Assembly: GCF_009770985.1 (NCBI RefSeq)
Contig: NZ_WSRW01000001.1
Location: 434,001 to 498,000, forward strand
DNA: 64,000 bases
DNA from: Mucilaginibacter lacusdianchii
Lineage (GTDB): Bacteria > Bacteroidota > Bacteroidia > Sphingobacteriales > Sphingobacteriaceae
Direction of reading: 5' to 3'
Positions 20,551 through 46,449 of the stretch are shown here, piece by piece. The stretch's first letter is position 1; every line of letters begins with the position of its first letter. The notes below the pieces were generated by a model, which made no database searches, had not been told where the DNA came from, and saw nothing but the letters and a program-made list of their open reading frames with translations. The translations under genes and the position numbers were made by a program.

Positions 20551-20580
20551 GTCATGCCGAACTTGTTTCGGCACCCCACA
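20551..20580. repeat. Left 30-bp terminal inverted repeat
   Basis: It begins GTCATGCCGAAC and ends GCACCCCACA, and its exact reverse complement lies at 20927-20956. Each arm also folds on itself: TGCCGAA pairs with TTCGGCA over a 5-nt loop, a hairpin reminiscent of REP elements. Confidence 0.9.
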
Positions 20581-20599
20581 AGACAGGTAATCAGACTTA

Positions 20600-20896
20600 T
20601 TATAGTTCCAGTTCATGTTTTAAGTCTTTCATCTCTACATTAACAGATTGAATCAAATTTACCTTCCATGCATGATGCCAGTTTTTCAATTGCTTTTCGC
20701 GGTCAATTGCATCTGTAATACGTTCAAAGTATTCATAGTAAACCAAATCATATAGGCGGTACTTTTTCACAAAAGCTGATCCTTCTCCATTGATATGTTG
20801 CCATATCCTGGTTCTTAAATCACTGGTAACGCCAATATAAAAAGTAGTACGATACTGATTAGACATAATATAGACATGCCCTTGTTTGTGCAGCAT
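20600..20896 (-). CDS. GIY-YIG nuclease family protein
   Basis: A 98-residue single-domain GIY-YIG endonuclease of the small UvrC-like type. Motifs in order: VYI (8-10) and YIG (20-22) forming the central sheet, Arg28/Arg30 in TSDLRTRIWQH with His34, and the metal-binding Glu67 in DAIDREKQLKNW. All the expected catalytic residues are present, so it is probably active. It has no UvrC DNA-binding domain. The gene fills an inverted-repeat-bounded cassette, which suggests that it acts on its own repeats or on target sites, rather than in excision repair. Confidence 0.9.
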   Translation of the reverse strand: MLHKQGHVYIMSNQYRTTFYIGVTSDLRTRIWQHINGEGSAFVKKYRLYDLVYYEYFERITDAIDREKQLKNWHHAWKVNLIQSVNVEMKDLKHELEL

Positions 20897-20926
20897 AATT
20901 TGCGAGATCAGCTTAATTACTTAGCA

Positions 20927-20956
20927 TGTGGGGTGCCGAAACAAGTTCGGCATGAC
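20927..20956. repeat. Right 30-bp terminal inverted repeat
   Basis: Perfect reverse complement of 20551-20580. The match stops on both sides of the 30 bp. Confidence 0.9.
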
Positions 20957-43936: not shown

Positions 43937-45349
<1,413 letters not shown>

Positions 45350-45355
<6 letters not shown>

Positions 45356-45366
45356 ACCGGAATTTA
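45350..45366. repeat. Left 17-bp inverted repeat of the GxxExxY cassette
   Basis: GTCTGAACCGGAATTTA, exact reverse complement of 45841-45857. Its bases 4-6 are the leuC TGA stop. Confidence 0.9.
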
Positions 45367-45408
45367 AAAAATTAAGATAATTAACCGAATTGAATTCCTT
45401 ATAACAAA

Positions 45409-45843
45409 GTGAGCACCATCAAAAGAACACCTCAAGAATTTAATGATTGCACAAGTGCGATTATTGGCTCTGCAATGCGTGTTCATGCTACATTGGGGAA
45501 TGGTTTTCAAGAGGTAATTTATCAAAGGGCACTAGAAATTGAAATGAGTTTAGCTGGACTTAGCTTTACTCGTGAAATGGAAATGCCTATTTTTTATAGA
45601 GAAGAGCTTATTGGCACCCGACGTGTCGACTTCTTTGTGGAAGGGGAAATTATGGTTGAACTTAAAGCGTTGATACATTTAGAAGACGTTCACTTAGCTC
45701 AAGCATTAAATTACCTGGAAGCTTATCAGGTAAGAACAGGTTTGCTGATAAACTTTGGAAGCAATAGCTTACAGTTCAAACGACTATTTAATAAGAAGAT
45801 TAACCCGAATTTACTGAATTCTATCAATTCAATAAATTCATAA
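45409..45843 (+). CDS. GxxExxY protein, PD-(D/E)XK nuclease superfamily
   Basis: A 144-residue protein with the defining motif GFQEVIY (GxxExxY, 32-38) and the nuclease-like core: Asp74 in RRVDFFVEGE, then VELK (Glu84, Lys86) and a following AQALNYLEAY helix. These fit the PD-(D/E)XK fold of the family, so metal-dependent DNA or RNA cleavage is plausible, but the family function is not established. The start is GTG. The C-terminal NSINSINS repeat reflects the 9-bp sequence periodicity of the element end, and the stop codon is the first three bases of the right inverted repeat. It interrupts the leuCD pair. Confidence 0.9.
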   Translation: MSTIKRTPQEFNDCTSAIIGSAMRVHATLGNGFQEVIYQRALEIEMSLAGLSFTREMEMPIFYREELIGTRRVDFFVEGEIMVELKALIHLEDVHLAQALNYLEAYQVRTGLLINFGSNSLQFKRLFNKKINPNLLNSINSINS

Positions 45844-45857
45844 ATTCCGGTTCAGAC
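45841..45857. repeat. Right 17-bp inverted repeat of the GxxExxY cassette
   Basis: TAAATTCCGGTTCAGAC; it starts with the nuclease stop codon and ends 1 bp before the leuD ATG. Confidence 0.9.
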
Positions 45858-45858
45858 A

Positions 45859-46449
45859 ATGACCAAAATATTCAAACACGTACAAACCTCGGTAGTACCC
45901 CTGCCGATTGAAAATATAGATACCGACCAGATTATTCCTGCCCGGTTCCTGAAAGCCACTACCCGCGAGGGTTTTGGCGACAACCTGTTTCGCGATTGGC
46001 GCTTTGACAACAACAATCAGCCTAAACAGGATTTTGTATTGAACAATCCTACGTACTCGGGTAAGATACTGGTAGCAGGCAAAAACTTTGGCTGCGGTAG
46101 CAGTCGTGAACATGCTGCCTGGGCCATTGCCGATCATGGTTTTGATGTAGTTGTAAGCAGCTTTTTTGCTGATATTTTTAAAGGTAACGCGCTAAACAAC
46201 GGATTGCTTCCGGTACAGGTAAGCGATGAGTTTCTGAAAAAGATTTTTGACGCAGTTTATGCTGATGCCAATACACAGGTTGAAGTTGATCTGGAAAACC
46301 AAATCATCAAATTAGCCAATACCGGCGAGCAGGAAAGCTTTGATATTAACCCGTACAAAAAAGCTTGCTTAATTAATGGCTATGATGATATTGACTACAT
46401 TTTAAGCAACCGCCAAAAGGTAGAAGAATACGAAGAAAATAGATTTTAG
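45859..46449 (+). CDS. leuD: 3-isopropylmalate dehydratase, small subunit
   Basis: LeuD is the swivelling small subunit that completes the isopropylmalate isomerase active site. The 196-residue protein has the segment [33 protein letters not shown] (the substrate-binding Ser/Arg loop), and [19 protein letters not shown]. Length is typical. Its upstream region is now the right repeat of the nuclease cassette, so its ribosome entry depends on sequence supplied by the element. An inverted repeat follows before leuB. Confidence 0.97.

Follow-up and report, generated by a model that had tools for sequence, protein, structure and literature searches.

A GxxExxY nuclease-family gene between inverted ends at the leuC-leuD junction of Mucilaginibacter lacusdianchii, a likely mobile element of bacterial operons

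The unit between leuC and leuD

We analysed a stretch of 64,000 nucleotides of Mucilaginibacter lacusdianchii (contig NZ_WSRW01000001.1, positions 434,001 to 498,000; hereafter the window), in which a 508-bp unit carrying a GxxExxY nuclease-family gene stands between leuC and leuD. An earlier reading of the letters alone (the sequence-only reading) had described perfect 17-bp inverted ends, a leuC stop inside the left end, a nuclease stop opening the right end and a leuD start directly past the unit. The coordinates bear out all four:

43937 to 45355, + strand: leuC (Pfam Aconitase, 586 bits), its TGA stop at 45353-45355 inside the left arm
45350 to 45366, + strand: left inverted end, 17 bp perfect, GTCTGAACCGGAATTTA
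45367 to 45397, + strand: remainder of the left arm, with more AATT words ahead of the open reading frame (ORF); inner border approximate
45409 to 45843, + strand: GxxExxY (PD-(D/E)XK) nuclease-family gene, 144 aa, GTG start; its TAA stop at 45841-45843 is the first 3 bases of the right end
45812 to 45840, + strand: inner right arm, with AATTC words within the 3' end of the ORF; approximate
45841 to 45857, + strand: right inverted end, 17 bp perfect, TAAATTCCGGTTCAGAC, the exact reverse complement of the left end
45859 to 46449, + strand: leuD (Pfam Aconitase_C, 113 bits), its ATG 1 base past the right end

Beyond the 17 bp, pairing continues as an imperfect arm (28 nt, 86%). Three sites of the window have exact inverted 17-mer pairs at a distance of 60-700 bp: 45350/45841, 20551/20956 (a GIY-YIG unit) and 29464/29541. 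Of 30 shuffles of the window that preserved dinucleotides, none had such a pair. The surrounding branched-chain operon runs from the acetolactate synthase small subunit (41579) through a DinB-like gene, an ilvC-position gene (42745) and leuC to the unit, and then through leuD, a leuB-position gene (46461) and a methyltransferase to leuA (48422); the ilvC-position and leuB-position genes are named by position and not by a family-library match.

The ORF of the unit scored 131.5 bits against TIGR04256 (cut-off 35) and 127.4 bits against PF13366 (PDDEXK_3; cut-off 22). At E 1e-3 this GxxExxY/PDDEXK_3 family was its sole match in NCBIfam and Pfam, with neither a transposase nor an HUH tyrosine transposase among the results. 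The conserved positions of the window protein are H26, GxxE35xxY38, D74, E84xK86 and Q98xxxY102, and E35, Y38, D74, E84, K86, Q98 and Y102 are invariant across 62 aligned sequences that include it. The predicted structure has a predicted local distance difference test (pLDDT) score of 89, with SSO0001 as top Foldseek match (E 6e-4); no convincing sequence relative was found in the PDB. By its sequence the protein is a member of the GxxExxY family with PD-(D/E)XK catalytic residues, and a predicted nuclease. It has the fold type and the D, ExK and QxxxY residues, a RecB-type motif, in common with Cas4/RecB-like PD-(D/E)XK nucleases, but is smaller and stands alone, with no CRISPR or recombination genes alongside it here. 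A defence gene was considered and set aside, PADLOC giving no match, and PHROGs gave one weak match to a family of unknown kind. Selection on GxxExxY genes is mostly purifying.

Junctions, arm words and gene boundaries in related genomes

In order to compare leuC-leuD junctions we used a genus set of 149 genomes, of which 143 had a LeuD match and 6 did not. We excluded 33 of the 143 by hand (29 with LeuD identity of 63-68%, 4 partial or weak) and surveyed the remaining 110 junctions. GxxExxY sequence was present in 35 of them, in every case in operon direction, and 10 were empty (gap of at most 6 bp), 2 short, 34 occupied by 60-200 bp of other sequence and 29 by more than 200 bp. The sequence-only reading had taken the unit for an insertion, and empty junctions do occur beside filled ones; not all close relatives carry the gene. 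The closest relative by LeuC (G085) has an empty junction with leuC and leuD overlapping as TAATG, and it is not among the 115 of 149 genomes with a GxxExxY match. The claim that the unit had entered without breaking a frame did not hold up, as the LeuC tail is QEELEIV-stop in the window and QEEELVG-stop in G085. The clearest comparison is that of G017, which reads GAATTAGT, then the element (start CTGAATCAG, end CTGATTCAG), then ATG, with G008, G041 and G042, whose empty junctions read GAATTAGTATG. This would correspond to a precise insertion with no target duplication. Nor was a clear target duplication found for 74 elements with both ends placed, in which direct repeats of 2-8 nt lay near the cross-element expectation (largest excesses 4 against 1.0 at offset 0, 2 nt, and 4 against 1.9 at offset 2, 4 nt).

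The LeuC tails of filled genomes fall into several phases, namely the old ELV-stop closed by GTCTGA, an arm-coded SESEFAELEN-stop with variants, and a shortened FLIV-stop. Since the leuC stop is the TGA of GTCTGA in 21 of the 35 filled junctions and leuC runs on into the left arm in the other 14, the built-in stop is not the fixed feature that it had been taken for. We infer that the direction of change was insertion and not loss, because LeuC tails are element-coded and the family is widespread. The junction copies form two separated nuclease clades, one of them (11 rows) fully supported, and at L255 an element sits within what is left of another's arms. A single origin of the junction copies seems unlikely because of the varying insertion phases and this nested case, and the element probably entered the junction more than once.

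Of 65 junctions that lack GxxExxY sequence and have gaps of 40 bp or more, 29 have fillers that are palindromic above shuffles. REP-like words, resembling repetitive extragenic palindromic (REP) sequences, are found in other junctions too. At L087, L081 and L091 the full element has directly beside it a mini (a short gene-less relative), or part of an extra arm, whose ends are the same. Seven further loci (L065, L078, L209, L220, L233, L263 and L264) belong to other species and have a different small ORF between leuC and leuD, antibiotic-biosynthesis monooxygenase-like by eye, and some of these carry remains of arms built of 7-nt words. It seems that the junction is a general hotspot of insertion.

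As the window genome has only one GxxExxY gene, other copies were sought in relatives. The proposal that copies share their inverted ends therefore found nothing to compare within the genome itself, whereas the units of its relatives have the same kind of ends. We collected 145 GxxExxY loci from several phyla (80 from named genomes, 30 from the genus and 35 junctions; 5 of those from named genomes repeat junctions already surveyed) and called inverted ends significant when they scored above all of 30 shuffles. This was the case in 120 of the 145 (60/80 named-genome, 27/30 genus and 33/35 junction loci). A typical end opens with TGTCTGAAY, after which GAATT or GATT words recur at intervals of about 9 nt. 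A CTGAA-type head stands at both ends of 74 of 101 distinct GAATT/GATT elements, with GT preceding nearly all, and one deep clade has CAGAG-type words and different ends. Word recurrence at lag 9 was 0.47 for GAATT and 0.43 for GATT, and for CAGAG 0.36 at both 9 and 11; no periodic word peak was found inside the ORFs. Outward of GT...AC, extension of the repeat was at most slightly above expectation.

The arm word follows the nuclease. On a tree of 143 rows (2 of the 145 proteins, shorter than 100 aa, were dropped), word type changed 3 times against at least 38 in 300 shuffles (n=116, with 27 rows lacking a clear arm word excluded and near-identical and duplicate loci retained), and within the genus 3 times against a shuffled minimum of 18. 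The 3 bases between the end and the first GAATT word agree left to right in 29 of 35 elements, compared with 30% across elements. Inter-word spacers matched left to right at 0.62 against 0.40 across elements for GATT, and more weakly, at 0.41 against 0.33, for GAATT. The joint change of the arms with each other and with the nuclease is our strongest indication that this protein may read them. We rejected the arms as pure hairpins, given the weak spacer match for GAATT and words that look more conserved than the whole palindrome. Built-in stops as the purpose of the arms were likewise rejected: frames stopped in the first 30 nt were only mildly above shuffles (GATT 2.16/1.86, GAATT 1.97/1.78, CAGAG 1.15/1.04 and, for the four-helix-bundle units described below, 2.39/2.08), which suggests a side effect at most.

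Placement was assessed at 82 loci with significant ends and an ORF on either side, ORFs being called mechanically (at least 80 aa); 5 of the 82 are leuC-leuD copies. Both neighbours run along the nuclease gene in 66, both against it in 5, and 11 are mixed, while 170 of 226 adjacent ORF pairs elsewhere in these loci are codirectional. A distance of at most 20 nt separates the left end from the upstream stop in 51/72 and the right end from the following start in 33/71. Neighbours were named at 5 loci hand-picked from 8, as ilvC (L093), leuB and ilvE (L155), hsdR and hsdS-like (L126) and hsdS-like (L134, L137), where the hsdS matches are below cut-off. Similar units stand at gene boundaries in many bacterial groups. 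At three of these five loci (L126, L134 and L137) the element directly follows the hsdS-like gene, of type I restriction.

Minis were searched in the genus set with the pattern TGTCTGAAY-N40-70-RTTCAGACA (span at most 88 bp), which gave 124 matches in 56 of the 149 genomes; the reversed-pattern control matched in 0 of 149. In the 30 mini loci that we fetched and read, 28 had at least 5 GAATT/GATT words, and the neighbours were oriented ++ in 9, -- in 7, -+ in 7 and +- in 5, with 2 minis inside an ORF. Of the 115 genomes with the nuclease 51 had mini matches, as did 5 of the 34 that lack it (p=0.002, a statistic that ignores kinship). The single match in the window genome is inside an ORF and probably due to chance. 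Exact GTCTGAACCGG occurs 8 times in that genome, 2 being this element, 5 single arms of another repeat of about 200 bp and 1 unrelated. The repeat of about 200 bp (L001, L002, L005, L006, L007) is interspersed, has no long ORF, and ends on one side in a lone GTCTGAACCGG-GAATT arm like those of the element.

Mobility and rival explanations

At the level of sequence, the anatomy of the unit, the empty and filled junctions, the varied phases, the match of word and clade, the minis and the boundary placement, mostly along the neighbours, are plain. On balance we favour the reading that the unit is a copy of a widespread small element, likely mobile, that is predicted to spread by the GxxExxY nuclease acting on its own arms, and thus a likely mobile parasite of bacterial operons. 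The nuclease would bind the word arrays at both ends and cut there or at the target, and the element or a mini would enter a new gene boundary by way of repair or a hairpin intermediate, without target duplication. We assume, not having scanned for one, that the element has no promoter of its own and would be expressed by read-through from the host operon, a dependence that would account for the bias in orientation. Operons would tolerate the element in that its ends provide the upstream gene with either a stop or an open tail, and the start codon that follows stays intact.

Several observations weigh against this reading. The window junction is not a clean insertion, for its LeuC tail differs from that of the closest relative beyond the insert, and the single copy in the window genome shows no recent spread there. 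With no clear target duplication, the classical signature of transposition is absent. With p=0.31, on a tree built from few columns, an approximately unbiased (AU) test did not reject a single clade of all junction copies. Significant inverted ends are lacking in 25 of the 145 loci, 5 genomes have a mini match with no GxxExxY gene detected, kinship may inflate the association of minis with the nuclease, and one near-identical gene pair has a ratio of nonsynonymous to synonymous substitution rates (dN/dS) of 1.0.

The unit might instead act at the RNA level, like the intervening sequences (IVS) of 23S rRNA: the arms would pair in the leu mRNA and loop out the ORF, keeping the leuC stop near the leuD start, RNase III may trim the structure, and selection would be on RNA pairing and not on nuclease sites. 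The predicted fold of the window element does pair the 17-bp arms (z -7.2), and in 6 junction elements the excess stability came from the arms (mean z -6.4 for the full element, -1.4 for the interior). The ends are often at stop and start codons in sense orientation, a placement shared by the four-helix-bundle family (28/28), which has relatives in 23S intervening sequences. However, left/right arm differences on the mRNA strand, pooled over GxxExxY elements, were 103 G-U against 158 A-C (p=0.0008), and by element 26 against 50 (p=0.008), with p values that are optimistic for related elements. Selection on mRNA pairing would favour G-U, and the excess of A-C therefore argues against it and leads us to rank the DNA-level reading first and this one, which we regard as unlikely, second. 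The antisense strand also folds about equally well, and minis are not bound to codirectional genes. We note that an A-C excess on the coding strand is a G-T wobble on the template strand and could reflect strand-biased mutation or a template-strand hairpin. A structured RNA or a group I/II intron was rejected, as nothing in Rfam matched 45200-46000 up to E 1 and the interiors of the elements that we folded behave like shuffled sequence.

Two other accounts seem less probable still. In the first, which we consider improbable, an unrelated enzyme, for instance a REP-associated tyrosine transposase (RAYT), would act in trans to move the palindrome, and the nuclease gene would be carried as a passenger or for addiction. 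This would fit the lack of a clear target duplication, the minis in genomes without a detected GxxExxY gene, and a neighbour at L137 that weakly matches a REP-associated transposase (65.4 bits, below the cut-off of 80), but the minis are enriched where the nuclease is present, and the tracking of nuclease clade by arm word even within the genus is hard to explain if another enzyme reads the ends. Least probable, and very unlikely, is a resident and vertically inherited regulatory gene of the leu operon whose palindrome serves as attenuator or translational coupler. Its presence in 35 of 110 junctions under mostly purifying selection, and the single origin that was not rejected, are compatible with such a gene; the empty junctions of close relatives, the differing insertion points and phases, the nested case, the two nuclease clades and the occurrence of such elements next to ilvC, leuB/ilvE and type I restriction genes speak against it.

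Parallel classes and known systems

Four-helix-bundle genes (TIGR02436), which we take to be the four-helix/S23 family of 23S intervening sequences, were found in 146 of the 149 genus genomes. Their units have inverted arrays of 7-nt words, with ends significant in 29/30 and a recurrence of 0.58 at lag 7, and the genes are codirectional with both neighbours in all 28 counted. This count omits L193, which lies on a contig that breaks off early, and another element whose ends were not significant. The words at the genus loci (L172-L201) are of AGATTTG, AGTATCA, GTTGTGA and AAGTTGA types. The arrays of 7-nt words may be linked to cyanobacterial short tandemly repeated repetitive sequences.

According to one paper, 23S rRNA intervening sequences with an S23 ORF have a small ORF inside pairable inverted ends and a sporadic distribution (PMC4990558). 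The elements are alike in size (about 430-510 bp), single small ORF, pairable ends and sporadic distribution. They differ in that the leu unit is between protein genes and outside any 23S rRNA helix, and its ORF is GxxExxY and not S23 or four-helix-bundle, while the four-helix-bundle genes of the genus are a parallel operon-lodged class with 7-nt words. REPtrons and TIRtrons have a small nuclease-type gene (RAYT) between repeats or inverted repeats and gene-less minis elsewhere in the genome (PMC3733652); GxxExxY elements likewise have gene-less mini copies that share their ends. REPtrons and TIRtrons have an HUH tyrosine transposase and GTAG hairpins, whereas GxxExxY elements have a PD-(D/E)XK protein and inverted arrays of words about 9 nt apart, and their full copies are mostly between codirectional genes at the upstream stop codon. 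The unit has terminal inverted repeats, as do DDE transposons and miniature inverted-repeat transposable elements (MITEs), and short gene-less relatives are a further likeness to MITEs and transposons of insertion-sequence type, but it has no clear target duplication and no transposase match. Among the titles and abstract openings searched, with subscription journals outside the scope, none named these elements, and a passage of a paper that names GxxExxY or PF13366 concerns a CRISPR-like reverse transcriptase (PMC8934634).

More tentatively, such units could constitute a new category of mobile DNA, one-gene elements between cistrons whose inverted arrays space their words according to the protein (about 9 nt for GxxExxY, 7 nt for four-helix-bundle). 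Each lineage would have its own word, mobilise minis of the same word and enter operons in sense at a stop/start boundary, and 23S rRNA intervening sequences would be the four-helix branch landed in rRNA genes. Both GxxExxY genes (115 of 149 genus genomes) and four-helix-bundle genes (146 of 149) are frequent annotated 'unknowns'. To regard them as operon-lodged mobile elements would account for the genes themselves, a large stock of quasi-periodic intergenic palindromes, the altered C-termini of host enzymes such as the arm-written LeuC tails, and perhaps how 23S intervening sequences arose. The pairing of arm word and nuclease would be a directly testable recognition code.

The sequence-only reading had also seen the same plan in the GIY-YIG unit of the window:

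20551 to 20956, - strand: GIY-YIG unit, with an ORF at 20600-20896 (- strand) between inverted GTCATGCCGAACTTGTTTCGGCACCCCACA ends (GTCATGCCGAACTTGTTTCGGCA); a different class

The likeness is that of a parallel class only. Units with GTCATGCCGAA-type ends do have a nuclease gene between inverted ends, but these are short hairpins without word periodicity. We took 30 GIY-YIG loci of the genus, of which 2 were too short, and 25 of the other 28 had significant inverted ends, in the form of REP-like hairpins without a 9-nt word array. These 25 stand between converging genes in 15 cases, between genes along them in 8 and between genes against them in 2. The REP-like GTCATTGCGAG repeats may be minis of GIY-YIG units.
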